Shown piece after piece: positions 2,695 to 38,694 of a stretch of 38,694 bases of DNA. Each line of letters begins with the position of its first letter. Within the stretch, counting starts at the first letter, position 1. The DNA comes from a virus: IMG/VR virus record IMGVR_UViG_3300021963_000295, positions 1 through 38,694 of that record; one strand, written 5' to 3'. The translations under genes were made by a program, and so were the position numbers. Under the pieces are notes generated by a model that made no database searches, was not told the DNA's origin, and saw nothing but the letters and a program-made list of their open reading frames with translations.

Positions 2695-3048
2695 TTAGTT
2701 TATTATCAGTAACGTCTTACCTATTTGGACACTATTCTCATCTTCCAAAGATAAATATAAATATCTAACAGGTAACGATTTTGTATATAACTTTAAGGAA
2801 TTTATTCCATTTTTACCAATTATTCTTTCTCTCGCTACAACATTTTGACCTATTGAATCAAAAAGAGTAAGTGTAAATACTCCCTCTGATTTTAAATTAA
2901 AGTTTATTTCACCTTCATTTGTTATTGTTACTTCCTTTGAAGAAAATATATCAAGGGGTTGTGGTTGTGGAATTGGTTCTACAGATACCTTGCGGCATCC
3001 GATTATAAAAATCACACAACATAATATTATAATTTTAATCCATTTCAT
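2695..3048 (-). CDS. Lipoprotein paralogous to the 2311 gene
   Basis: A 117-residue lipoprotein with a hydrophobic signal peptide and lipobox IIGC (Cys18), again followed by RK. The C-terminal 65 residues repeat the beta-domain pattern of its neighbour: FTLTLFDSIGQNVV, a G-x-N turn, SLKLYTKSLP, then a last pair of strands ending LLIIN. The two are clearly diverged duplicates. Its start overlaps the stop of the large lectin-domain gene at 3048, so the two are translationally linked. Function unknown; the pairing with large secreted proteins suggests membrane anchors or assembly partners. Confidence 0.65.
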   Translation of the reverse strand: MKWIKIIILCCVIFIIGCRKVSVEPIPQPQPLDIFSSKEVTITNEGEINFNLKSEGVFTLTLFDSIGQNVVARERIIGKNGINSLKLYTKSLPVRYLYLSLEDENSVQIGKTLLIIN

Positions 3049-5624
3049 TATTGTATCTTTATTTTTACACTAGTTCCACTCACATTCACAGCTTCATTAG
3101 TAGCTATGGATAGTAATCCCAATGAGTTAGGGATTTGTTTATTTAATTTGAAACCCAATCGGTATTCGGTAGACCCATCCAGAAGTTCACCAGAGGTGTT
3201 TATAGAACCCAAATTAATAAATGAACCTTTATCTGTCCCAAAGTTTATAGGAGAACCTGTGGTTCTAAAATTGGTTCCTGTGTACTTTAGAATGGTGTTA
3301 TCATAGTTTATCTGAAATTGAGTTCCTACTATTTGATTTGAATTTGGATTGAACTTAATATATGCAATTAGGCTATCACCTTTTATTTCCGAAATGATGT
3401 ATGCTGTTGGTTGAAGCGTTACCGATTTCAAACCAACGTTTGCTGACATTGTGGTGATTCCGTTTGAAGGTGGTGTTGCTGAATGCGATAAGTTTACATC
3501 TCCTTTCCAAGTTACTGCCAAATTGTATGTATAATTCGTTACACCATCTAATAAACTAAATCCATATTCTTTTCCTAAATAATTTGGAAATTGTGTCCAA
3601 TTAGATTTACCAATCGTTGAGTATGTAGAATCGGATATAATCTTCATTGTATTATCCAAAGTGTAACTACTAATCAAATCTTTTGCACCAGTTAGGTTTT
3701 GTAATAATCTAAAACAATCTGCTTCATTAAAAATACCATTATCATCCACATCTGCATTTTTGAATTGAATGCCATATGTAAATTCGTTTCCACTTTGATT
3801 ACCGAATATTCCACTATTAGATACTTCTTTAAATGCCAAATAAACATCGGATACCGTTACAATACTATTATAAAGGGTTTTTAATTGAACAGAATCATAT
3901 TGTTGAAATTCTAATTTGTGTTGTTTGTATGCACCATTTTGTGCAAAATTTATATTAGAAGTAAAGGCCCAATTATTGTAATTAGCATTTCGTATATTAG
4001 CAGCAAATGCCGAAGTTCCATCAGTTACTTTTGGTAATGATGATGGAACAATATAGTGTGCCCAATATGCAGATGTTTGTTGATAAGTTACAGGTCCATC
4101 ATACACATCTAATATTTTTACTTTAGAAATTGTTGAAGGTTGGGTATTTCCAAATCTTGTCAAATCAATGTAAAGAGTTGTAGTTCCATTTGATATATTA
4201 ACATAAGAAAATTCCGCTTGACCGGCTGAAATTGTTGCTTTATATGAAGATGGTTCGTTTACAAATTGATAACTCAATCCCCATGCTCCCCATTCGGAAG
4301 TTGTGATACCATTACGAGTTGAACCAGGATAATTATTTTTTCCTTCAACTACTTTAATGTAAACTTCTTTTGTTTGCCCAATAGTTATAACTCCAGCATG
4401 CACCGCCATAGCGGGAATGTAAGAGTCATTGGTGTATATATCAGTTCCCCAACCACCACCACCTGCTCCTGTGATTGTCATTTTATATATCTTACCAATA
4501 TCAGTTTCACTATATGCAGTCATATCGTTTTGGGTTGCGGCTTGGATTGCAGATGAATATAGTTTTGCGGTATCTAATTGATTTGAAAGATAAACTTTAC
4601 CCAAACCATTTAGTGCTTTGTAATCACCACCAGATGTCCAAACTGATGTGGCATCGTTTCTTTTGAATAGTTTTGATGAAAAATTACTTTCAGTTATATT
4701 AGAACCAAAATTAAAATTAAATACCGCCTTTAGAGTTTCTCCATTTGAATGAACAACACTATTGGAATAAAATTCAGTAAATGTTGCATCATCAGGATTA
4801 GTCCAAGTTCCAAATTCAACTACATAAGCACAACTAAAATTATTAGGTAAATCGTTCCATTGGTTTCCACCACCCCATTTAGTTACTGCATAATCTTCAT
4901 TACCACTATTGTTTGGTTCACCACCTGCCCAGTTATTATATTGACCTACTATGTTTCCGTTTAGTTGTCCGTTTGATGTTTTAATTAAAGTTCCTGCTTC
5001 AGGTCCCGCATCAATTCTCCATTGACCTTCAACTACTTCATCCGTTAATGCAAACCAAATACTAGCTTGCGGAACATTGGCAAATATAAAAGCATCTTCG
5101 GAAGCAGATGTTATTGTTACCAAATATCCTTGCTGACCTTTGAATGTTTGTTGAGATGATAATGTTCTTGCGTTTGTATAAGTTGCTCCGCTTGATATAG
5201 GTCTATAAAAGTGTCCATTAACTCCGTTATAAAAGTATCCAACAGGATTTACAGTTGCAGCTACTGAAATATTAATATCACCCGTTACCGAACCTGTATT
5301 TATTTTTAGAGATGTTAATGCCGTATTAATACTAGCCATTGTTCCCGTTACAACTAAACGAGTTTTATTACCACTTAAAGTAAATCCACTTGCTGCCGTT
5401 AAACCTGTTGTTGTGTTGAGATAGAATGTAGTACCTGAAGGTGGATTAACTAAACTAATTGATGCCAATAAAGTTGCAGTTGAACTAAACCCACTTAAAG
5501 AGAATCCACTTGCATCCTGTGCCGATGTATTTACATTAAACGATTTTGGGTCTGGTGCATCTACTGCTTGCCCAAACCCAAAAATCGTTACAAAAGATAA
5601 TAAAATTGCTAATAATATTCTCAT
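3048..5624 (-). CDS. Large secreted protein with C-type lectin, dockerin-like and cohesin-like domains
   Basis: 858 residues with a Sec signal peptide (about 1-18). Residues about 130-275 form a C-type lectin domain: Y-x-N-A-R start, GYLVTITSASED, WFALTDEVVEGQWRI, WAGGEPNNSGNEDYA and WNDLP. A central beta region follows. Near residue 620 there is an IVTVSDVYLAFKEV segment followed by a Ca-loop DVDDNGIFNEADC that resembles a dockerin half. The last 130 residues look like a cohesin-type beta sandwich (IVGTQFQINYDNTILKY). The C-terminal part is related to that of the neighbouring 564-aa protein. Likely displayed on the virion or on the infected cell, binding glycans. The lectin call is firm; the others are by pattern. 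Confidence 0.75.
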   Translation of the reverse strand: MRILLAILLSFVTIFGFGQAVDAPDPKSFNVNTSAQDASGFSLSGFSSTATLLASISLVNPPSGTTFYLNTTTGLTAASGFTLSGNKTRLVVTGTMASINTALTSLKINTGSVTGDINISVAATVNPVGYFYNGVNGHFYRPISSGATYTNARTLSSQQTFKGQQGYLVTITSASEDAFIFANVPQASIWFALTDEVVEGQWRIDAGPEAGTLIKTSNGQLNGNIVGQYNNWAGGEPNNSGNEDYAVTKWGGGNQWNDLPNNFSCAYVVEFGTWTNPDDATFTEFYSNSVVHSNGETLKAVFNFNFGSNITESNFSSKLFKRNDATSVWTSGGDYKALNGLGKVYLSNQLDTAKLYSSAIQAATQNDMTAYSETDIGKIYKMTITGAGGGGWGTDIYTNDSYIPAMAVHAGVITIGQTKEVYIKVVEGKNNYPGSTRNGITTSEWGAWGLSYQFVNEPSSYKATISAGQAEFSYVNISNGTTTLYIDLTRFGNTQPSTISKVKILDVYDGPVTYQQTSAYWAHYIVPSSLPKVTDGTSAFAANIRNANYNNWAFTSNINFAQNGAYKQHKLEFQQYDSVQLKTLYNSIVTVSDVYLAFKEVSNSGIFGNQSGNEFTYGIQFKNADVDDNGIFNEADCFRLLQNLTGAKDLISSYTLDNTMKIISDSTYSTIGKSNWTQFPNYLGKEYGFSLLDGVTNYTYNLAVTWKGDVNLSHSATPPSNGITTMSANVGLKSVTLQPTAYIISEIKGDSLIAYIKFNPNSNQIVGTQFQINYDNTILKYTGTNFRTTGSPINFGTDKGSFINLGSINTSGELLDGSTEYRLGFKLNKQIPNSLGLLSIATNEAVNVSGTSVKIKIQ

Positions 5625-24877: not shown

Positions 24878-27800
24878 ATGAAAAAAATCGGAAAATTTCT
24901 CCTTATGGTAGTGATAACACTATTATCATTTGGAACAAGTGCGCAAGAAACAACTTCTGAAATTCAGGGATTAGTTTCTGATGGAAAAGCCGGATTAACA
25001 GGTGTAACAATTGTAGCTACTCACCAGCCAACGGGTACGAAGTACACAACTTCTTCTCGTGCTGATGGTAGATACAACTTGCCAAACTTGAAAATCGGCG
25101 GACCGTATTCAATTCACGTAACATCAATTGGTTTCAAAGCAGAACATCAAGACGATATTACATTGTTATTGGGTCAGTCACACAAAGCAAACTTTATTTT
25201 GAAAGAAGCATCAACAACTTTAAAAGAAGTAGTTGTAACTTCAGGACAAAGTAAGGTGTTCAACTCTAGCCGTAATGGTTCTCAAGAGATTATTAATAGA
25301 CAATTAATTGAGAGAATACCAAACGTTAATAGAAGCTGGAAAGATTTAGTTAAATTAGTTCCTTCGCAAAACAACTTATCATTTGGTGGTTTATCTTCTC
25401 AATTGAATAACGTTACTTTGGATGGTGCAAACTTCAACAACTCTTTCGGTTTAGGTGATGGTACATTAGGAGGTCAAACAGGAGCACAACCAATCTCATT
25501 AGATGCGGTTGAACAAATCCAAGTTAACGTTTCTCCTTTTGATGTAAAGTATGGTGGTTTCGCAGGTGGTTCAGTAAACACTGTCACTCGTAGTGGTAAG
25601 AATCAATCTTTCGGTTCTGTTTATCAATTCTTTAAGAATAAAGATTTACAGGGTTATAAAGTTGGTGATATTACTTTACCTAAACAAGACTTTACTTATG
25701 ATTTAAAAGGTTTCACCGCAGGTGGAGCAATTGTTAAAAACAAATTGTTCTTCTTTGTAAATGGTGAAGAAGAAAGTAGAATGGAACCTGGTACACAATG
25801 GATAGCATCTGATGCTACTAATACTCCAAATGGTATCAACATATCTCAAGCTAAAGCAGCTGATTTGGATGCATTAAGAAAGTTTTTAATTGAAAAATAT
25901 AATTACGATCCAGGTACATATCAAGGATACCAATATGGTTCAGTATCAAAACGTTTAACTACAAAATTAGATTGGAATATCAATAGTAAAAATTCATTCT
26001 CATTGAAATATACACTATTACGTTCTTCGGCAGATATCCCACCATCTAACTCACAATCAGTAAACGCATCAAATGGTAGAAGACCAAGTGTAACAGCGAT
26101 GCCTTTCTACGGAGCTGGTTATACAATTAATAACAACGCTGATATCATCATTGGTGAGTTAAACACTAGATTCTCAAATAACGCTTCCAACAAATTACAA
26201 ATTGGATACACTAAATTGAGAGATTTTAGAGGAACATTGACTAGTGGTAATTTCCCACAAGTAGATATATTAGATGGTAACGGTCAACCTTTCACAACTT
26301 TTGGTTATGAAAGATTTACTTATGGTAACGTTTTAAATTCAGATGTAATTCAATTGAATAACATTTTCAACTTATATAAAGGTAAGCATGAATTTACATT
26401 CGGTACACAAAATTCATTTAAGAAATATTCAAATGGATTCTCACCTAACTATGCCGGAGCATTCCGTTTTAATAGCTTAGCCGATTTCTACGCATCTGCA
26501 GCAGGTACAAAGCCAGCAGCTGTGTATGATTTATCGTGGTCATTAACCGGTGATTTTCCGTTGGTTGGGCCAAAGAATACTGAATTAAGTTTATTTGCAC
26601 AGGATAAATTCAGAGTGAAAGATAACTTAACAGTCACTTATGGTTTGAGAGCGGATTATGTATCTTTCGCTGATAATTTCCTTTACAATCCAGTAGTTGA
26701 CACATTATCTAAATTCTATGATGGTGTAAGATTAAATACAGGTTTAGCACCTAAAAATGCTTTACAACTTTCGCCTAGAATTGGTTTCAACTGGGATGTG
26801 AACAATGACCAAACATTACAAGTTCGTGGTGGTACTGGTTTATTCCAAGGCCCTCCACCTTTCGTTTGGATATCTAACCAAGCATCTAATAGTGGTATGG
26901 CGTTATTCGGTTCTATTACAAATGCAACCGGATATATGTTTAATCCAGATATTAATGCATATAGACCAACTCCAACACCTGGATTGGCTAAATCATATTC
27001 TCTTAACGTAACTGACCCTAACTACAAATTCCCACAAGTATGGAAATCAACGTTAGCAGTAGATAAGAAAGTATTAGGATGGACAGTAACTGCGGAAGGA
27101 ACTTATATTAAGAACATCAACGCTACTGTATTCCAAAACGTTGCATTACCTTCAACAGGAAATATTACGTTAAGCGATGGTAGAACTCGTTTCATCAAAC
27201 GTTCAATATATGATGCAACTGGTACAGCTCAAACAGCAGCTAATCCAAATATCGGTAACGCAATTTATATGACCAATGCAAATGTTGGTTATGTATTATT
27301 CGGTACATTGCAAGTTCAAAGACAATTTAAGAATTTAGCGGTAAACGCTTCTTACACTCGTCAAACTGCAAAAGATGGTACAATCAATGGTTCTACTGCA
27401 TTTACAATGTGGGGAGCTAGACCAACATCTACAAATCCTAATAACTTTGAAGAAGGTTTTTCAAACAACTACCTACCTCATAGAATCGTAGGTTCATTTG
27501 TTTATGGTAAAGAGTTTATTAAGAACACAAGAACTTCATTTGGTTTATTATATGAAGCTTCTCCAAACGCTTTACAATCATCTCTTTCTTACACATATGC
27601 GGGTGATTTAAATAATGATGGTTTCAATGGTAACGATTTAATCTTCGTTCCTGCAAACGCATCTCAAATTAAATTAGTAAACGCATCTGCGGTAAGTGGT
27701 GTAGCTGATACTCGTACACAAGAAGAATTATGGAATCAATTAGATGCTTTCATTTCAAATAACAAATACCTTTCAACTCGTAGAGGTCAGTTTGCTGAAA

Positions 27801-28138
27801 GACAAGCATTAGTATTACCTTGGGTTCATAGATTAGATTTGAATTTCACACAAGATGTTTATATCAAATACAAAGATACAAAACATACTTTAAGATTCAC
27901 AGCCGATATCTATAACTTCACAAACTTCATCAGCAAAGATTGGGGTGTAAACCAAACTCCAACAACTGTAACTCCACTTAACTTTGTAAGATTGGATACT
28001 GATGGAAAAACTCCGGTATTCTCATTCCCGTATTTGGATGGAAAGAATAAAGTTCCGTTTACTGATTCATTCAGAGATAACGTAGGATTTAGTTCTCGCT
28101 ACCAAATTCAATTGGGTGTTAGATATATCTTTAACTAA
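24878..28138 (+). CDS. Oar-like TonB-dependent outer-membrane receptor
   Basis: 1086 residues, full length for the Oar-like class. Signal peptide (1-22, ending SFGTSAQ), a CarboxypepD_reg-like domain (about 27-115), a plug (about 120-235) with ERIPNVNRSWKDLVKLVPSQ, LNNVTLDGANFNN and QVNVSPFDVKYGGFAGGSVN, and a long beta barrel with GLRADYVSF, ending YQIQLGVRYIFN with the usual terminal aromatic. Such porins take up large substrates at the outer membrane using TonB, and phages use them as receptors. Carriage by a phage is unusual. Codons use AAC, TTC and TAC more freely than the neighbours, like highly expressed host genes, so transfer from a host is likely. Confidence 0.9.
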   Translation: MKKIGKFLLMVVITLLSFGTSAQETTSEIQGLVSDGKAGLTGVTIVATHQPTGTKYTTSSRADGRYNLPNLKIGGPYSIHVTSIGFKAEHQDDITLLLGQSHKANFILKEASTTLKEVVVTSGQSKVFNSSRNGSQEIINRQLIERIPNVNRSWKDLVKLVPSQNNLSFGGLSSQLNNVTLDGANFNNSFGLGDGTLGGQTGAQPISLDAVEQIQVNVSPFDVKYGGFAGGSVNTVTRSGKNQSFGSVYQFFKNKDLQGYKVGDITLPKQDFTYDLKGFTAGGAIVKNKLFFFVNGEEESRMEPGTQWIASDATNTPNGINISQAKAADLDALRKFLIEKYNYDPGTYQGYQYGSVSKRLTTKLDWNINSKNSFSLKYTLLRSSADIPPSNSQSVNASNGRRPSVTAMPFYGAGYTINNNADIIIGELNTRFSNNASNKLQIGYTKLRDFRGTLTSGNFPQVDILDGNGQPFTTFGYERFTYGNVLNSDVIQLNNIFNLYKGKHEFTFGTQNSFKKYSNGFSPNYAGAFRFNSLADFYASAAGTKPAAVYDLSWSLTGDFPLVGPKNTELSLFAQDKFRVKDNLTVTYGLRADYVSFADNFLYNPVVDTLSKFYDGVRLNTGLAPKNALQLSPRIGFNWDVNNDQTLQVRGGTGLFQGPPPFVWISNQASNSGMALFGSITNATGYMFNPDINAYRPTPTPGLAKSYSLNVTDPNYKFPQVWKSTLAVDKKVLGWTVTAEGTYIKNINATVFQNVALPSTGNITLSDGRTRFIKRSIYDATGTAQTAANPNIGNAIYMTNANVGYVLFGTLQVQRQFKNLAVNASYTRQTAKDGTINGSTAFTMWGARPTSTNPNNFEEGFSNNYLPHRIVGSFVYGKEFIKNTRTSFGLLYEASPNALQSSLSYTYAGDLNNDGFNGNDLIFVPANASQIKLVNASAVSGVADTRTQEELWNQLDAFISNNKYLSTRRGQFAERQALVLPWVHRLDLNFTQDVYIKYKDTKHTLRFTADIYNFTNFISKDWGVNQTPTTVTPLNFVRLDTDGKTPVFSFPYLDGKNKVPFTDSFRDNVGFSSRYQIQLGVRYIFN

Positions 28139-31237: not shown

Positions 31238-32776
31238 TTATTTACGTTTATTTCTAAGTTTACGATACTGCTCTGGCATTTTGGTTTTAACTTGGTGACA
31301 AGATAAACACAATACTTCACAATTATCTATTTCGGTTTTACCACCTTCACTATGAAGAATAACGTGGTCACCTTCATATGAAGAAGTATTATCTGGATCG
31401 ATATCTTCGCCACAACATGCACATTGATTGTTTTGTAATGAACAAACTTGTTGTTTTTGTTGTTTAGAAAAAGCCCTCTTACCATCACGTATAGAGATTA
31501 TACCATCTTCAAATAGTTTATCTTTAATAGATTCAATTACAAATTCCAAAGTAATTGGAGAATCACCGGCAGTATAACAAGCGGCAAATGTGTTATTACG
31601 CTCCCTAATAGATTCCGCCAACTTATTATCATCGTGATAGTTGTTTTTATCAACTAAATAATTGTTTTCCAATGCCCAATCATTAAGAAGTGTGTTTCTC
31701 TTTTTCAAGAGATTTATTGCTTTAATATACCCACCTCTTAAAAGTTTTGCATCAAACTTCTTTTTACTTCTAATTAAGTCCCAAACCACAATCATAAAGA
31801 TAAGAATATCTCTTTTTTTCCAAAAATCAGATGATGATGATTTTGTAATTACATATTCAGATGTATCCATCATCTTATCGAAGATAGGTTTAATTCTATC
31901 GATATCTTTTTGATTTCTATACCCATCTTCGTTAAAAGATTCATATAGAGAATCGATTCCCGATTTACCAATATTTGTATATTTGTCAGCGTAGCCGTAG
32001 ACCAATACTTTGGAAACTACTTCTTGCACAAGTTTACCAAAAATACTTAATTTAGGCATATGTACAAACTCAGCCTTATCGGTATCTACTTTAAGAAAGT
32101 CATATATTGGTTTTTCTATAAACATAATACCATTCAACCAATGTGAAAGTGGATTATCCAATGATGACCTAATATCCTGGTCACTTAATGGATTTTGGTC
32201 ATTCACATCTACAAAACGTTTGTGTTTTTCTTTTGAAGTAAGAGTTGAGTTCAATATAATAAACTTATAATTAGTCAACCATTCTGCAATATATTCAGAA
32301 TGAAGTGTATTCAGTTCTTTCATTGTCATATTGGATACATCATACATCTTTCCTTCATAGAATATGGTAGCCCCTTTGGGAAGGCGAACTTTGTTATCCA
32401 TAATATCAATGAATGTTTTGGTTCTTTGTTGCCCATCCATTGATTCGATTTTACTAATCAACTTACCAGTTTTAGGATTAATAGTATTAACCCATTCGAT
32501 AATACCCATTGGTTGATAATTGATAATGTTTAGAAACAGATTTCTCTGCCAAGGGTGTCCACTTCCACCTGGTAGGTTATTAAATAAATAATAACGTTGG
32601 AAATTAATACTGTAAGTTACGAACCTACATTTTGAATTGAAGTCTTCCGCTGAAACTGCGGTTAAAGAAAATTTGGTATCACCAAATTCATTTTCTGGAG
32701 AAGTAAACAAGTTTGTTATGTTTTCATTCTCTAATTCGGCAAGACGATTGTTGCCATCTAGTACCATTGTACTCAT
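31238..32776 (-). CDS. DUF262-HNH nuclease (GmrSD-like)
   Basis: 512 residues. N-terminal DUF262: NFQRYY in place of 'P.yQR.y.W' (58-63), ESMDGQQRTKTFID (111-124), KRFVDVNDQNPLSDQDIRSS. C-terminal HNH nuclease (about 447-505): CACCGEDID, then YEGDHVILHSEGGKTEIDNCEVLC and LSCHQVK, i.e. Cys-x2-Cys zinc pairs plus the D-H motif. DUF262-HNH pairs are known from GmrSD type IV restriction, which cuts modified DNA; the DUF262 part is an NTP-driven DGQQR nuclease domain. In a phage it may target host or rival DNA. Promoter 143 nt upstream; the HTH gene follows. Confidence 0.8.
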   Translation of the reverse strand: MSTMVLDGNNRLAELENENITNLFTSPENEFGDTKFSLTAVSAEDFNSKCRFVTYSINFQRYYLFNNLPGGSGHPWQRNLFLNIINYQPMGIIEWVNTINPKTGKLISKIESMDGQQRTKTFIDIMDNKVRLPKGATIFYEGKMYDVSNMTMKELNTLHSEYIAEWLTNYKFIILNSTLTSKEKHKRFVDVNDQNPLSDQDIRSSLDNPLSHWLNGIMFIEKPIYDFLKVDTDKAEFVHMPKLSIFGKLVQEVVSKVLVYGYADKYTNIGKSGIDSLYESFNEDGYRNQKDIDRIKPIFDKMMDTSEYVITKSSSSDFWKKRDILIFMIVVWDLIRSKKKFDAKLLRGGYIKAINLLKKRNTLLNDWALENNYLVDKNNYHDDNKLAESIRERNNTFAACYTAGDSPITLEFVIESIKDKLFEDGIISIRDGKRAFSKQQKQQVCSLQNNQCACCGEDIDPDNTSSYEGDHVILHSEGGKTEIDNCEVLCLSCHQVKTKMPEQYRKLRNKRK

Positions 32777-32956: not shown

Positions 32957-33463
32957 TTAATATTTTATTAGGGATATCACATTTTTACCCCCAATTTTGA
33001 TATCTCCGTGTAAATATGTTAGGTCAATTAAGGTAATAGCACCGATAACATTGTACCCAGCTAACCTCAATAGTTCTTCTGTCGCGAGTAAAGTTCCACC
33101 TGTAGCAAGAACATCATCAACTATAACGATATCACCTTTACCTTCTTTTACCTCTAATACATCATGCCCATACTCTTTGGATGCATCTATCTTTATTGTA
33201 GGTGGTGGTAATTTACCTGCCTTACGAACTGGAACAAATCCTTTACTATCTACTCCTGATATTGCGGAAGCGAATATAAATCCTCTTGCCTCAATTCCAG
33301 CAACTAAATGACAAGGAAAGTTCTCGTCTATTAATACAACCATTTCATCTATCGCAGATTGAAATGCTCTACCATCTTGAAGGAGTGGTGTAATGTCCCT
33401 AAATGTAACTCCCTCAATCGGGAATCCTTCTACGTCTTTAATTAATTCTTTTAAATTTTCCAT
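32957..33463 (-). CDS. apt: Adenine phosphoribosyltransferase
   Basis: 168 residues, full length. Makes AMP from adenine and PRPP. Visible motifs: GFPIEGVTFRDITPLL, the flexible IEARGFIFASA loop, KAGKLPPPTI, and the PRPP-binding IVIVDDVLATGGTL. All key acidic residues of the PRPP motif (VVDDVLATGGT) are intact. It lies 1 nt after the last array gene, as the end of that operon. Phage purine salvage is unusual but known; here it complements ThyA and the kinase. Confidence 0.92.
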   Translation of the reverse strand: MENLKELIKDVEGFPIEGVTFRDITPLLQDGRAFQSAIDEMVVLIDENFPCHLVAGIEARGFIFASAISGVDSKGFVPVRKAGKLPPPTIKIDASKEYGHDVLEVKEGKGDIVIVDDVLATGGTLLATEELLRLAGYNVIGAITLIDLTYLHGDIKIGGKNVISLIKY

Positions 33464-33464
33464 T

Positions 33465-33776
33465 TTATATTGTGTTTAAATAATGTACTAATGATTCTCC
33501 AAATAACTCCATATCTTCCAAAACTGCTTTATAAATAATATCTTCGATTATAGATGAACTACCTTTATCATCATCGATTAAAGATATAGCATAAGCAGTT
33601 TCATAAAATTCAGTATCAATCTTATCCTCTCTAAATATTACAACCGTAACACTTCTTTTTTCAAATTTGTGATGTACTTGTAAGGCATAATAAGTCGATT
33701 CTTCTGCAATCCTTCCGATTTGCCAATTACCAAAATACTGGTTCTTAATCTTTTTATAATTCACTATTGTTAGCAT
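33465..33776 (-). CDS. Array protein A (paralogous family, 103 aa)
   Basis: Last member of the array in transcription order. It opens MLTIVNYKKIKNQYFGNWQI, the family head: Met, two hydrophobics around Thr/Ile, Asn, an aromatic or Leu, Lys-Ile, a Gly-Trp strand about residue 16-18. A beta core follows (YYALQVHHKFEKRSVTVVIF), and the closing helix FGESLVHYLNTI fits the F-x-x-h-x-x-h-h end. No membrane segment or signal. Function unknown; it lies 1 nt from neighbours. Confidence 0.65.
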   Translation of the reverse strand: MLTIVNYKKIKNQYFGNWQIGRIAEESTYYALQVHHKFEKRSVTVVIFREDKIDTEFYETAYAISLIDDDKGSSSIIEDIIYKAVLEDMELFGESLVHYLNTI

Positions 33777-33777
33777 A

Positions 33778-34206
33778 TTAAAAAGGTAGGTGATGATTGG
33801 TTACGGTTTCTTCTACTAATCCCCAAAAGTTTTTATATGTTATATCATGTGCCCTAAACCAACTTCTATTATCCCACTCACCATTATCATCGTGAATATA
33901 ACATTGATACATCATTTCGGGATAGTAAGGTAGTTCTGCATATTGTAATACCCTACTCAATGTTATATATACCCTTAATTTATTATCAGTTCGATATCGT
34001 AATTGGAATAAATAGCTATCTTCGGTTTCATCCGCCGAAATAATATCCCATCCATAAAATACAGCTGTGTTTAGGTCTTTATCAAAATTTTCTATTGTTA
34101 ATTTTTTATCCATACTATAAAAATCTTTAAAGTTATTAATGCCTTTTGGAGTAGATGTAATAATAACATGAGGTCTAAATCCGCCTGTTAATTTATTTAT
34201 TTTCAT
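33778..34206 (-). CDS. Array protein B (long N-terminus)
   Basis: 142 residues from ATG at 34206, whose A overlaps the previous TAA (TAATG). The family head (MDKKLTIENFDKDL, then VFYGWDI) starts at residue 32, so the first 31 residues are extra and contain MKINKLTGGF, itself similar to a worn family head. A start at 34113 would give the usual length but leave a 92-nt gap, unusual for this operon. The core is beta-rich; the end (YKNFWGLVEETVTNH) is the closing helix. Function unknown. Confidence 0.6.
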   Translation of the reverse strand: MKINKLTGGFRPHVIITSTPKGINNFKDFYSMDKKLTIENFDKDLNTAVFYGWDIISADETEDSYLFQLRYRTDNKLRVYITLSRVLQYAELPYYPEMMYQCYIHDDNGEWDNRSWFRAHDITYKNFWGLVEETVTNHHLPF

Positions 34207-34517
34207 TACATTACACATTTAAGACACGCATCAAATGTTTTGAGTACATTTACAAAACGTTTAAACCAATTCGCTGTTATAACGTGTATTGGGCTGTTTG
34301 GATAGTTCAATCGATATTCCCATTCATCCTCAACAGCATTATAATGTCCAAATCGACTAACTTCAATCCAAACATAGCGAGTTGAAGGAGCAGCATCATC
34401 TCTAAACTGGAAACGATAATTAGTATCAGTTTCAATCGCATTGGTGCATATAAATCTATCTTTATGATACATCGTTGTTATTACCTTATTATAATTTTCT
34501 ATCTTTAATGTTTTCAT
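34206..34517 (-). CDS. Array protein C (103 aa)
   Basis: Head MKTLKIENYNKVITTMY, core strands TNYRFQFRDDAAPSTRYVWI and YRLNYPNSPIHV, then closing helix NWFKRFVNVLKTFDACL with two Cys at the end. The Trp of the first strand is replaced by Phe (DRFI). It shares the overlap style with B and is 1 nt from D. No domain recognised. Confidence 0.6.
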   Translation of the reverse strand: MKTLKIENYNKVITTMYHKDRFICTNAIETDTNYRFQFRDDAAPSTRYVWIEVSRFGHYNAVEDEWEYRLNYPNSPIHVITANWFKRFVNVLKTFDACLKCVM

Positions 34518-34518
34518 A

Positions 34519-35157
34519 TTAGTATGCAGCTTTTTTAGCGGTTATCTTTTTCTTTTTAGGTATCACTTGCTCTATTGCAGTTTTCATTGGGAACAAAATG
34601 TTAATCCACTTATCCCACTTTATCATCTCTTTAAATGTTTCCCACATTGTAGGCATCTTTGGTTTAGATTCGGTTTCTTCACTAACGTACCATTGTGGTT
34701 GTGATATCGGTGGTGGTTTAGGTATTTGATATCCACCAAATGAATGTCCCCCGCTATTAATCCTTTTTGTTACCGTAGCTAATGATGAAGTATGATATGT
34801 AGTTGGAACATTAATACCATTCCTTAATATATCATTGAACTTATGTAAAGTTCTTGTCAACGTTCTACAAAATGCATCAAATGTTTGAAACTCATCTTTG
34901 GTTAAAGATTGAGTATCTCCAAAAGAATTAGTTTGAAATTGAGATACAAACATAGTACGATTATCCATTTTGGCCTTTAATGTCCACAATCCTTTAATTT
35001 GGTCCTCTTTGAAAAGACGGAATTGAGTAATAACTCCAGTTGTTGTAGAAGATTCAAATAACATTGTATAATGGTCTTTACGTTCTTCAACCATATAACA
35101 AGTCCAATCAGCAATCTTTACTCCATTTAATTTACCTATGTTTTCTAACTTTATCAT
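34519..35157 (-). CDS. Array protein D (212 aa, extended)
   Basis: Head MIKLENIGKLNGVKIADWTC and core (YTMLFESSTTTGVITQFRLF) are family-like up to the closing helix near residue 95-110 (FDAFCRTLTRTLHKFNDIL). It then continues for about 100 residues: a Ser/Gly/Pro-rich linker with PKPPPISQPQW and a basic, Trp-containing end (MIKWDKWINILFPMK, KKKKITAKKAAY). The extra tail may bind nucleic acid or a membrane. It is the only long member, and overlaps E at 35157. Confidence 0.6.
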   Translation of the reverse strand: MIKLENIGKLNGVKIADWTCYMVEERKDHYTMLFESSTTTGVITQFRLFKEDQIKGLWTLKAKMDNRTMFVSQFQTNSFGDTQSLTKDEFQTFDAFCRTLTRTLHKFNDILRNGINVPTTYHTSSLATVTKRINSGGHSFGGYQIPKPPPISQPQWYVSEETESKPKMPTMWETFKEMIKWDKWINILFPMKTAIEQVIPKKKKITAKKAAY

Positions 35158-35474
35158 TATATATGTTTTTCATGTTCTCTTTGAATTGCTAAAACCAAAT
35201 TTCGGAGTAAGTTATCTTTATCCTTAAATTCGTTTAGAGCGTACTTACCACTTCCAATACAATTATTAAATGTATCATACATCAAACGAATTGCAATATA
35301 TCCATCTTCACAAAATTCTTTTGTTATTTGAATACATCCGTGAGTTGGATGCCCATCATTTCTTCTAACCTTTATGGTGTAATGTTTTTCGTTTTCAGTT
35401 GGGGCATAAAGGTCCCATCCACCAACTTCATATCCATCCATACGTTCAAAGTTACTAATCGTTAAGTTCTTCAT
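35157..35474 (-). CDS. Array protein E (105 aa)
   Basis: Head MKNLTISNFERMDGYEVGGWDL with the Gly-Trp strand, core strands HYTIKVRRNDG and GYIAIRLMYDTFNN, closing helix LLRNLVLAIQREHEK. Function unknown. Its start overlaps the end of the two-TM gene by 20 nt, and its stop overlaps the D start. Confidence 0.6.
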   Translation of the reverse strand: MKNLTISNFERMDGYEVGGWDLYAPTENEKHYTIKVRRNDGHPTHGCIQITKEFCEDGYIAIRLMYDTFNNCIGSGKYALNEFKDKDNLLRNLVLAIQREHEKHI

Positions 35475-35724
35475 TAATATAATTTTTATTCATTTGATAA
35501 TAAGGTTTGTTATCTTTCTTCTTTCGGATTTTGATTCTGCTTAATCTCTCTCCTGCGAATATTGGAAAAAAGAATGGACCAATAATGGGTACAAACAATA
35601 TGTAACCAATTAAACCAGCCACCGTCAATTCATCGGACTCGTATGAATCTGATATAAGATAGTATCCCAACCAACCTACCGATACAATGTAATACAATAT
35701 AAGTGCAATTGTTAATATTAACAT
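35455..35724 (-). CDS. Two-TM membrane protein in the array
   Basis: 89 residues with hydrophobic segments at about 2-25 and 33-56 (VAGLIGYILFVPIIGPFFFP), then a basic tail (RIKIRKKKDNKPYY) on the cytoplasmic side. It is not a family member but lies within the array and overlaps both neighbours (35474 and 35718), so it is co-expressed. It could anchor an array protein at the membrane. Confidence 0.55.
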   Translation of the reverse strand: MLILTIALILYYIVSVGWLGYYLISDSYESDELTVAGLIGYILFVPIIGPFFFPIFAGERLSRIKIRKKKDNKPYYQMNKNYINEELND

Positions 35725-36059
35725 ATATTTTTATTTTTTAGTTTTTCCATTATTATTTCATCCAGCTTTGCAAACATTTCTGTTTTTTTCTTAAACACAC
35801 CATGCATTACATCTTCATTATAAATGCAATTATTACGGGCTTCCCAACGTATCTCCAAATAGAATGCCCCTTTATATCGAGAGGATGGTTCTCTCTTAAT
35901 AATCACTTCACCACGTGCGCTAGTTTGGTTTCCTTTAATATCGAACATAATGTAATATTGGTCATTGAAACTATCCCAACCAGCATCTTCTATTTTTAGA
36001 TTTTGAGTTTCTTTGCCTTTAATGGATTCAAAGTTTTCTATATTTAATCTTTTTAACAT
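35718..36059 (-). CDS. Array protein F (113 aa)
   Basis: Head MLKRLNIENFESIKGK, then LKIEDAGWDSFNDQYYIMFDI and EVIIKREPSS, closing helix MFAKLDEIIMEKLKNK. The W sits a few residues later than in most members. It overlaps the two-TM gene by 7 nt and G by 7 nt. Function unknown. Confidence 0.6.
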   Translation of the reverse strand: MLKRLNIENFESIKGKETQNLKIEDAGWDSFNDQYYIMFDIKGNQTSARGEVIIKREPSSRYKGAFYLEIRWEARNNCIYNEDVMHGVFKKKTEMFAKLDEIIMEKLKNKNIC

Positions 36060-36343
36060 AAATTTTTTATTATTGTTCTAATTCCATTCATTACATTTTT
36101 TATATCCCTCAACTCATGTTTGCTAAACCAAATTAATTCTTGCTGACAACATAATAAATACTTTCCTCTATTCGGGTGTGGTCTACCATCTTGCACTAAT
36201 GGAGTAAATCTACCTAATGTTATTTCTAAATTTGGAAGATTACTAAACGCAACATTAAATTGATAATGTGTTTGATGGGTAATTATATCCATCGGGTGAT
36301 ATGTAAGATGCCTTATCTTCTCTACGTTTTCTATTGTTATCAT
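36053..36343 (-). CDS. Array protein G (96 aa)
   Basis: Head MITIENVEKIRHLTYHPMDI, core THYQFNVAFSNLPNLEITLGRF and KYLLCCQQELIWF, closing helix IKNVMNGIRTIIKNL. It has the same N-Asn-h-x-Lys-Ile head but lacks the Gly-Lys. Start overlaps H by 4 nt. Confidence 0.6.
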   Translation of the reverse strand: MITIENVEKIRHLTYHPMDIITHQTHYQFNVAFSNLPNLEITLGRFTPLVQDGRPHPNRGKYLLCCQQELIWFSKHELRDIKNVMNGIRTIIKNLC

Positions 36344-36660
36344 CTTGGTATTCGTTTTATTATTGCTTCAAATGATTCTAATACAAAGCCCATATCTTTT
36401 AAATCCAATACACACGCCCAATTATCAGTATCATACCCTTCATATAGAAATCGGTAAAGAAGCGTACCAGGCCCCAAAGTAGAACCATGCAATCGGACAA
36501 TTGAAATCTTTGTAGTATAATCAATCTTAAAATTATTATTATACCTATCCAATATGAAATTATACTTAGATGTATCTTCCCACACTTTACTTACTCTCCA
36601 ATTCAAATCAGGTGTGAATGTCTTACCAACTATCTTATCTAAATTTTTTATTGTTAGCAT
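36340..36660 (-). CDS. Array protein H (106 aa)
   Basis: One of the clearest members: MLTIKNLDKIVGKTF, LNWRVSKVW, KYNFILDRYNNNFKI, TTKISIVRL, WACVLDLKDMGF and closing helix LESFEAIIKRI. Overall: head, Trp strand, four further strands, terminal amphipathic helix. No match to a known fold can be made by eye. Confidence 0.65.
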   Translation of the reverse strand: MLTIKNLDKIVGKTFTPDLNWRVSKVWEDTSKYNFILDRYNNNFKIDYTTKISIVRLHGSTLGPGTLLYRFLYEGYDTDNWACVLDLKDMGFVLESFEAIIKRIPR

Positions 36661-36661
36661 C

Positions 36662-37000
36662 TTATTTTTTATTATGGTAGTTTGTAATAATATACTCTAA
36701 TTGAGCGGTGAAGTTATCCATATCCGCTAACCAATCCGCCGAACCACATACATTGGTATGGTCTCCGTTGTAGTTAAAGAAGTATGTCGCCTCTCTCTTA
36801 TTTGTTTTAGGGTTTAGGACATTTACAGAGATTCGGTTTATGGATATTGTACATCTATCCATCACTACTCCTATTGGAGAGAAGCAATGAATATCAAACA
36901 TATACTTTGATTGAGTGGGATGTCCATTCACATCTTTGATTACCCAATTAGCAAATACCTTCCTATTGAGTGCCTTTCTTATGTTTTGTATGTGTAACAT
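36662..37000 (-). CDS. Array protein I (112 aa)
   Basis: MLHIQNIRKALNRKVFANWVI head with Trp at the same place, core SKYMFDIHCFSPIGVVMDRC and TYFFNYNGDH, closing helix FTAQLEYIITNYH. It has extra Cys and Asp residues. 1 nt to H and 1 nt to J. Confidence 0.62.
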   Translation of the reverse strand: MLHIQNIRKALNRKVFANWVIKDVNGHPTQSKYMFDIHCFSPIGVVMDRCTISINRISVNVLNPKTNKREATYFFNYNGDHTNVCGSADWLADMDNFTAQLEYIITNYHNKK

Positions 37001-37001
37001 G

Positions 37002-37277
37002 TTATGTTAAGTTGTGTATTAAAAATGAAACAAACTCATCCCTATCCCTTATAACCTCTATTGGTATGTATTGTTCGTTACCCGTTTCAAAGCATGATAC
37101 ATGATAATCACCATGTGCCGTTCTCCGCCTATCAATCATAAGGTTAAACATATCGAAGGATGTACCTGGACCCAATACTTTTATATAGTAGATATCGTTT
37201 CCTATTGATATGTTATGTATCTTCCATTGACCGATGAACTTACCGGCTAGGGATTCTATATTTTCTATTATTAGCAT
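37002..37277 (-). CDS. Array protein J (91 aa)
   Basis: MLIIENIESLAGKFIGQWKI head, YYIKVLGPGTSFDMFNLMI core, YHVSCFETGNEQYIPI strand pair, closing helix RDEFVSFLIHNL. The shortest member; it may represent the minimal fold of head, Trp strand, core and end helix. Confidence 0.65.
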   Translation of the reverse strand: MLIIENIESLAGKFIGQWKIHNISIGNDIYYIKVLGPGTSFDMFNLMIDRRRTAHGDYHVSCFETGNEQYIPIEVIRDRDEFVSFLIHNLT

Positions 37278-37283
37278 ATACTA

Positions 37284-37592
37284 TCATTTATACCCATTAA
37301 GGAATTTTTCAGTAATCCAAAATATAAATTTACCTCTATCACGAAATGTATCCATATCTAAATTAAACTTTGATAAGATATAATGGTCATTCGCATCGGT
37401 AAAATAAAGGAATACAAAATCCCCATTCAATTCTCTCATTACGGTCAACTTCGCATCTAATACACCATCTCTCAATATACGAAATAGGTATTCCATAGCG
37501 TTCCCTCTTTGATATACAATTTCAAATTCTATATTTCTCGTTGTGAGTTTACTATGAAAGTTTAACTTATCTGGGTTTTCTATTTGTAACAT
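37284..37592 (-). CDS. Array protein K (102 aa)
   Basis: MLQIENPDKLNFHSKLTTRNIEFEI, taken as MLQIENPDKLNF and TTRNIEFEIVY; core EYLFRILRDGVLDAKLTVM and DFVFLYFTDANDHY; closing helix RGKFIFWITEKFLNG. The Trp of the first strand is missing. Function unknown. Confidence 0.62.
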   Translation of the reverse strand: MLQIENPDKLNFHSKLTTRNIEFEIVYQRGNAMEYLFRILRDGVLDAKLTVMRELNGDFVFLYFTDANDHYILSKFNLDMDTFRDRGKFIFWITEKFLNGYK

Positions 37593-37598
37593 AATTCT

Positions 37599-37691
37599 TT
37601 ATAGGTTTGATGATAACACCATTAATAATGCTATTGCAATAATATACACTAACATCATAATCCAAATTGAATAATCTTTTTTCTTTTTCAT
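37599..37691 (-). CDS. 30-aa single-TM microprotein
   Basis: ATG at 37691, TAA at 37599-37601. Basic start (MKKKKDYS) and one membrane helix (IWIMMLVYIIAIALLMVLSS). It fills the gap between array proteins L and K and keeps the operon's close spacing, which supports translation. Function unknown. Confidence 0.5.
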   Translation of the reverse strand: MKKKKDYSIWIMMLVYIIAIALLMVLSSNL

Positions 37692-37694
37692 ATT

Positions 37695-38051
37695 TTATCT
37701 ATTTTCCATCCAATATCTTTTACCTCTTTGAACCACTACTACTAAACCGTCAATGAATTTATCAAAGTTTCCAATATCTTCTTTGGATAATTCTGCACAA
37801 GTTACACCGTGTAATCCCATCCAAAACAATTCGTACTTATCATTTTTAGGAGTTCGGTAAAGGTGAACCTCAAATTCACTTTCCCATTGTTTATATGTGT
37901 TTCCATAATTGTAATGCGGTATTTCCGGAAAATGAAACACATACGAAGTTGAACCATCTCTATATCTATTAGCAATACTTACGTTCTCTATTTTACGATT
38001 GCAGATTTGGTGACCTACTATTTTATCTAAACCACTAATGTTTAACTCCAT
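37695..38051 (-). CDS. Array protein L (118 aa)
   Basis: First family member in the transcript. Head MELNISGLDKIVGHQI, strand NRKIENVSI, core STSYVFHFPEI and EFEVHLYRTP, W-rich loop (LFWMGLHGV) and closing helix FDKFIDGLVVVVQRG. The start overlaps the stop of the 78-aa gene (TGGAGTTAA). Function unknown. Confidence 0.62.
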   Translation of the reverse strand: MELNISGLDKIVGHQICNRKIENVSIANRYRDGSTSYVFHFPEIPHYNYGNTYKQWESEFEVHLYRTPKNDKYELFWMGLHGVTCAELSKEDIGNFDKFIDGLVVVVQRGKRYWMENR

Positions 38052-38304: not shown

Positions 38305-38532
38305 TTAATCGTTGGACAGATATAAATCTAATGCCATATAGATAGTATATAGAATACCGAATACTACCATAACAAAGGCAAGTATAATAGATACAGGTGG
38401 TATTAATAGAATCCACTTTACCCATTTATACGATAGATACTCTTTCCTTGTCTTATCGTTTACTGCCATCTTTATAGAGAAAGCGAGTAACATATTGAAT
38501 ACGGATAGAATTATAATCAGTAACGTACTCAT
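38305..38532 (-). CDS. 75-aa two-TM membrane protein
   Basis: Start chosen at MSTLLIII (38532), because a longer frame to 38574 overlaps the upstream gene whose stop lies at 38534-38536. Two hydrophobic segments (about 2-18 and 39-65) with a charged loop (NDKTRKEYLSYKW). A 26-nt gap separates it from the 78-aa gene. Function unknown. Confidence 0.55.
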   Translation of the reverse strand: MSTLLIIILSVFNMLLAFSIKMAVNDKTRKEYLSYKWVKWILLIPPVSIILAFVMVVFGILYTIYMALDLYLSND

Positions 38533-38533
38533 A

Positions 38534-38694
38534 CTATTTGGTTTTAGTGGTTTTCTTCTTAATAGGTTTACCATTGGTATCGGTAGCTGGGGATGAAGAT
38601 TCTACCAACTCCGTCTTTTTGAGTTTCTTTGCCGGTTTGGTTTCTTCTACTATACCTGTATTATCTGATGTGGTAGGTATTGTATCATCGATGA
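38534..38694 (-). CDS. C-terminal end of a Lys/Thr-rich protein (5' end beyond window)
   Basis: An open frame enters from the right edge and stops at 38534. The 52 visible residues are disordered and basic: EETKPAKKLKKTELVE, then SSSPATDTNGKPIKKKTTKTK. The start is outside the window, so the protein cannot be identified. Its stop is 1 nt from the next start, so it is part of the array operon. Confidence 0.5.
   Translation of the reverse strand, partial: IDDTIPTTSDNTGIVEETKPAKKLKKTELVESSSPATDTNGKPIKKKTTKTK

Follow-up and report, generated by a model that had tools for sequence, protein, structure and literature searches.

Homogeneous polyimmunity loci of bacteria, such as those built from the SUKH and Imm families, are tandem arrays in which paralogues, distantly related and drawn from a single superfamily of small proteins, lie on the same strand (Zhang et al. 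2012, PMC3482391). The gaps between the genes are tiny, no toxin genes are interleaved, and the number and kind of genes differ between close relatives (PMC3482391). Among large DNA viruses, cytomegaloviruses carry gene families (RL11 and others) that are described as host-adapted and involved in immune evasion (PMC11416908, PMC8781790). Freshwater Bacteroidetes phages that encode ribosomal protein S21 reach 331 kb, and the text of the paper that describes them makes no mention of paralogues, duplication, or tandem genes (PMC9723584). Here we describe an array of twelve small genes in a viral sequence, IMG/VR record IMGVR_UViG_3300021963_000295. The window that we analyzed is the complete record, 38,694 bases. 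The array (array 1; positions 33465-38051, minus strand) contains twelve open reading frames (ORFs) in the same direction (91-146 amino acids [aa], and one of 212 aa), most of which overlap or sit a few bases apart, and an apt-like gene comes next. A preliminary description, made from the DNA alone, had placed twelve ORFs here in one operon closed by apt, and we confirmed the ORFs at this place on the minus strand. The locus is thus a same-strand tandem array of distantly related paralogues with small gaps, and by analogy of layout the nearest described organization is the homogeneous polyimmunity locus. As a whole, the proposition that it is an array of swappable cassettes for binding or inhibitor proteins, used in counter-defense or host takeover, is in our judgment evenly balanced.

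We are nearly certain that the twelve ORFs (g1 to g12, numbered from the start of the array) are one family with one shared fold. The best full-length pair in an all-against-all BLAST comparison was g7/g8 (E=2e-5), and most other pairs aligned only over the first ~35 residues or the first third. A profile made from the twelve window members picked up relatives over their whole length in other contigs. The preliminary description had named likeness limited to the translation start as the result that would speak against a family. We therefore cut the conserved head from every sequence and trained a body-only profile on array 1 of the window and of two related contigs, G001 and G002. Of 70 held-out types, this profile recognized 39 at E<1e-3 and 53 at E<0.01 (233 modules of the family group into 88 types). 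At both thresholds it found none of 70 reversed sequences, none of 70 shuffled sequences, and none of 1658 other ORFs. Based on these results the family is real along its whole length, and a likeness confined to the start-codon region is ruled out by the head-free test.

The family is previously undescribed, as had been supposed from the DNA. With PHROGs, Pfam, and NCBIfam profiles, no more than 3 of 93 members matched any one family, and the best E was 0.0026 over 93 scans. PADLOC defense profiles gave nothing significant (no family drew more than 2 of the 93 members, and the lowest E was 0.0033), and there was no match above chance level among PDB sequences. In INPHARED, the array had no DNA match, g12 had no protein match, and a member of a second array gave only E ~7. 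Nothing close was found in the literature on phage paralogue or cassette arrays.

Models of two members indicated the same fold. An AlphaFold2 model of g12, made from 93 family rows, had a five-strand antiparallel meander followed by a C-terminal helix (predicted local distance difference test [pLDDT] 88.7; predicted template modeling score [pTM] 0.80). A second AlphaFold model, of one second-array type, was less confident (76.7 and 0.69) and had the same order of elements as g12. Its input was seven orthologues of that type only, without window sequences, and the two alignments were disjoint. For neither model did Foldseek find a PDB entry at E<0.001, and against BFVD it found nothing significant for g12. 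With VIA-align, the two models shared the middling neighbors CapZ, Med17, and Csm1 (best Z 6.5 and 6.4). In the comparison with RWD-like and CapZ-like domains, the structural rows were CapZ at Z 6.5 (89 residues, 3.5 Å), a Mediator Med17 chain at 6.4 (89 residues, 4.1 Å), and Csm1 at 6.3 (83 residues, 3.0 Å); no row of any protein reached Z 8. The same element order and the same weak neighbors in both models point to one shared fold with no firm known relative, which agrees with the single fold that had been predicted for the array. T7 Gp1.2 (rank 4, E 1.3, template modeling score 0.34) and Pur-alpha were considered as structural relatives and dropped as insignificant.

Across types, a few residues were near-invariant: Y30 (87/87), N6 (83/88), R/K49 (87/88), and Y62 (81/88). 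Along the strands, core positions take turns with unconserved ones, and the isoelectric point ranges from 4.5 to 10.2 (88 types). Together, the near-invariant core, the variable alternating strand positions, and the wide range of charge suggest a scaffold with differing binding faces rather than an enzyme. On balance we favor the view that the proteins are target-binding inhibitors. Small beta-rich domains with variable exposed positions might also be expected if the proteins were part of the virion, as decoration or structural proteins whose surfaces vary. We consider that very unlikely, as the arrays are distant from the terminase in G002 and PHROGs gave no virion signature, only isolated chance-level matches.

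The family was present in 23 IMG/VR contigs, which were retrieved via apt, a second-array gene, and the DNA head motif. All of these contigs are metagenomic and most are fragments, and the numbers of copies (3-32 apiece) are minima; copy number thus varies among related phages, as the preliminary description had anticipated. A single array gene used as search seed found no relatives, and the g10/g11 pair found only G001 and G002. Several contigs have two arrays. In G001 and G002 the second array is ~9 kb upstream of array 1, a place that lies past the edge of the window. Neighboring modules were within 60 bp of each other in 146 of 194 pairs, all on the same strand.

The carriers are likely large uncultured phages of Bacteroidota-type bacteria. 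G002 is 274 kb, and its terminase is 57.5% identical to that of Flavobacterium phage immuto (Immutovirus). Immuto does not have the array family, and the family was also not present in Mel-JY01 or the 484-kb LR756508. It was found in 0 of 395 Bacteroidota genomes; the positive control was viral records searched with the same profile, and the set contained no known-positive genome.

The arrays very probably draw on a pool of cassettes that are swapped between phages. For 231 of the 233 modules, the nearest relative was in a different phage. Modules in the same genome were at most about 35% identical, and none had a close sister in its own genome. We conclude from this that the cassettes come from a shared, non-redundant pool and not from recent local duplication. 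In line with non-redundancy, same-type repeats within a contig were rare (2 observed; mean 21.6 and minimum 8 when types were shuffled). Recent tandem duplication is ruled out by the lack of close sisters inside a genome, and the repeated duplication that the preliminary description had invoked does not hold as a current process. Its suggestion of a constant gene order also failed: the order of types varies between phages and is shuffled among relatives.

Exchange of whole cassettes could be traced in three cases, and cassette content differed among close relatives (G001/G002 and G018/G023). G018 and G023 are 98% identical, and a single cassette of 331 bp, whose two breakpoints fall in the conserved head, is present in one and not in the other. 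G001 and G002 differ by a 773-bp indel of two cassettes that is flanked by an exact 21-bp repeat, ATGCTAACAATAGAAAACATA. In G005 and G006, one zinc-ribbon N-terminus (CxxC...CxxC) continues in frame into two distinct bodies (L077 7568-7951; L078 7101-7574 and 9209-9499), and the joint is inside the head. The head, ATGCTAACAATAGAAAAC, is the coding start where the breakpoints of whole-cassette indels fall, and it is likely that it acts as an exchange seam.

The head is conserved as DNA. That the gene starts look alike had been noted before, and this is real and can be quantified, although the exact 12-mer ATG[CT]TAACAATA was in only 2 of the 12 window heads. For codon usage we used contigs that had not been found via the motif, de-replicated to one sequence per type; earlier codon measurements had used related sequences or motif-found contigs and were not taken as evidence. 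CTA accounted for 27/35 of the Leu codons in heads compared to 40/275 of those elsewhere in these genes (P 6e-14). The bias was similar in kind for Thr ACA (27/30 versus 109/242), Ile ATA (34/36 versus 207/338), and Asn AAC (25/39 versus 70/241). Other gene starts in these contigs had no excess of CTA or AAC (CTA 57/510). The head codons are conserved beyond the need of the protein, and gene-start bias does not explain this. The 12-mer occurred 80 times at family genes and twice elsewhere, both times in what appear to be truncated family genes. Scans for sigma-70 promoters and terminators showed no excess over shuffles.

The cassettes are maintained by purifying selection and are not neutral. 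The median ratio of nonsynonymous to synonymous divergence (dN/dS) was 0.19-0.41 for the pairs of orthologous cassettes compared. Some cassettes of close phages had dS of 0.3-0.5 beside neighbors at 0.06-0.1. In these jumps dS rose together with dN, which indicates replacement of the cassette by a diverged allele. The diversifying selection that had been proposed was therefore not borne out at the level of genes, and no gene-wide positive selection was seen in the orthologous cassettes compared. One orthologue pair had dN greater than dS (L074/L075 9350, 0.103 versus 0.086) and may be a mosaic. Because head repeats ease gain and loss, arrays like these might in principle be a selectively neutral or selfish expansion maintained by recombination. 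We give this very little credence: the frames are open throughout, dN/dS is low, the core residues are conserved in 88 types, and the modules are non-redundant within genomes.

We propose that every gene in such a cassette array specifies a single copy of a compact scaffold, whose core is fixed while its outward strand positions vary. At least 88 types would form a common pool, and each related large phage would hold its own non-redundant selection from it (3-32 copies). Whole cassettes would be gained, lost, replaced, and reordered by recombination between the short near-identical heads (ATGCTAACAATAGAAAAC...), such that the head serves as gene start and, in the three traced cases, as exchange seam. 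Early in infection, each protein may bind and block a target of its own, from the host or from a competing phage, and the array would work as a changeable repertoire for counter-defense or host takeover. We infer the protein binding, the early expression, and the host-defense targets. The array looks like a toolkit built to change, probably for blocking host proteins. That the targets are mainly in defense or takeover seems to us a little short of an even chance. More tentative is a specific version, a counter-defense library in which one scaffold underlies at least 88 inhibitor types and the head is gene start, N-terminal segment, and recombination seam at once, allowing gene-by-gene reshuffling that preserves the frame.

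Several points weigh against this proposal. None of the members has an established function or partner, none matches a known fold significantly, and dN was not above dS overall. The type-shuffle test of non-redundancy ignores shared ancestry. Junctions with a canonical head were not broken more often than others (37 kept and 32 broken versus 50 and 35, P 0.62). The statistics thus do not show rearrangement to be concentrated at head junctions, and it is the three traced cases on which the role of the head as a seam rests.

An alternative is that the head serves regulation or translation. It might be an RNA or translation signal, such as a phage repressor site or a downstream initiation enhancer, in arrays that shuffle by ordinary homology, with the head appearing as a seam only because it is the longest shared sequence. 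This alternative concerns the head only and is compatible with any function of the proteins. We regard it as a real possibility, if the less probable one. The conservation begins at the ATG and spans approximately the first 21 bases of the gene (+1 to +21) with little upstream, as a signal of this kind would predict, and the result with canonical-head junctions is also in line with it. However, in the DNA examined the motif was only at family genes, and a signal for initiation in general would be expected at other genes as well.

The swapping of cassettes also bears on whether the proteins act on defenses at all. Each might bind a different housekeeping protein of the host (polymerase, division, metabolism) in a general takeover with no anti-defense role. 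The placement of the arrays among metabolism genes would suit this, as would small, soluble, diverse proteins encoded in one operon. But stable housekeeping targets would not favor the turnover of cassettes seen between phages that are 95-98% identical, and we think such a role unlikely. A repertoire used against host defense or for takeover is the reading that we carry forward.

The individual genes of array 1 are as follows, all on the minus strand. The first, g1 (37695..38051; 118 aa, type 16), has an orthologue at the matching position in G001, G002, and G007. Between g1 and g2 is a 30-aa membrane peptide outside the family, MKKKKDYSIWIMMLVYIIAIALLMVLSSNL (37599..37691), and a similar conserved stretch is in the same place in G001 and G002. 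The most divergent member in the window is g2 (37284..37592; 102 aa), with a profile E of 2.8e-9. It is followed by g3 (37002..37277; 91 aa, type 17), g4 (36662..37000; 112 aa, type 35), g5 (36340..36660; 106 aa), g6 (36053..36343; 96 aa), and g7 (35718..36059; 113 aa). An 89-aa membrane protein within the array and outside the family (35455..35724) is in G001 and not in G002. After g8 (35157..35474; 105 aa) comes g9 (34519..35157; type 24), which is not in G002; its first ~104 aa are the array domain and the rest is a conserved C-terminal tail (PPPIS...WYVSE...WETFKEMIKWDKWINILFP). Conservation of this tail extends to G001 and, in part, to G007, and the tail is a possible anchoring helix. The array ends with g10 (34206..34517; 103 aa, type 10), g11 (33778..34218; type 20), in which a conserved N-terminal extension precedes an array domain that starts at 34113, and g12 (33465..33776; 103 aa, type 19), the member modeled with AlphaFold2. 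Examples of the conserved 5' seam are the cassette head ATGCTAACAATAAAAAATTTAGATAAGAT at 36632..36660 and that of g12, ATGCTAACAATAGTGAATTATAAAAAGAT, at 33748..33776 (both minus strand). The lengths given in the preliminary description were all found, but because of their extensions the 146 aa of g11 and the 212 aa of g9 represent a domain plus extra sequence. It was also correct about three small membrane genes: two are the genes just given within the array, and one is upstream (38305-38574).

Other genes in the window and its relatives include unusual cargo. A full-length TonB-dependent outer-membrane receptor (24878-28138, plus strand) has carboxypeptidase-regulatory, plug, and barrel domains. 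It is 94-97% identical to the copies in G001 and G002 and ~50% identical to proteins of Ferruginibacter and other Bacteroidota, and it is a genuine phage-borne gene. An 858-aa secreted-looking protein (3048-5624, minus strand) has C-type lectin and LCCL domains, and a DUF2589 protein is at the contig edge (3-515, minus strand). Beside the second array of G002 (L072 7571-8334) are genes that we read by eye as a cyclophilin-type isomerase and a GroES-like protein.

The apt-like phosphoribosyltransferase gene after array 1 (32957..33463, minus strand) is 92-93% identical to the copies in G001 and G002. A conserved 108-aa gene lies on the far side of a slot next to apt, and this slot is occupied by a different, non-homologous protein in each of three phages: 512 aa in the window, 545 aa in G001, and 624 aa in G002 (window 31238-32776, minus strand; L002 10677-12314; L003 10583-12457); the one in the window has an HNH nuclease domain. 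It has the look of a site where conflict genes are exchanged. Large restriction-like proteins adjoining array 1 would be in keeping with a bank of antidotes, in which each array protein neutralizes a different toxin (a host abortive-infection toxin or a competing phage's weapon). So would the layout, since distant paralogues on one strand, with tiny gaps, no interleaved toxins, and sets that differ between close relatives, are what homogeneous polyimmunity loci have (PMC3482391). With Pfam profiles, however, the 93 members gave only scattered chance-level matches and none to an immunity family (SUKH, Imm6, Imm11, and others), and the family was found in phages and not in the bacterial genomes searched. 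We consider antidotes rather improbable and prefer inhibitors of host proteins.

Whatever its function, this is a large undescribed family that fills several kilobases in each genome. Further carrier phages can be retrieved with nothing but the head motif. If our proposal is correct, the inhibitors would be exchangeable one cassette at a time, and the 88 types would be a list of candidate inhibitors for unknown defense systems. With respect to genome size, G002 is in a class similar to that of the S21 phages and likely shares their host phylum. Integron arrays also have short cassettes whose order and content vary between close relatives, and the phage arrays are alike in this. They differ in that the traced seams fall inside a protein-coding head, with what looks like repeat-mediated recombination; no dedicated search for attC sites or an integrase was made. 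The RL11-type families of cytomegaloviruses offer an analogy and not a relation: they too are sets of related genes in a DNA virus of large size. There is no sequence relation, and the array differs in being carried by a phage, in its non-redundant cassettes shared across phages, and in indels at a coding repeat. The phage arrays differ from polyimmunity loci in being in phages, in having members outside the immunity families, in having two arrays per genome in several cases, and in an exchange seam within the coding head. They resemble polyimmunity loci in the layout of the array and in variability among close relatives. If the array is what we propose, it would be a phage counterpart both to these bacterial loci and to the gene families with which large animal viruses evade immunity.

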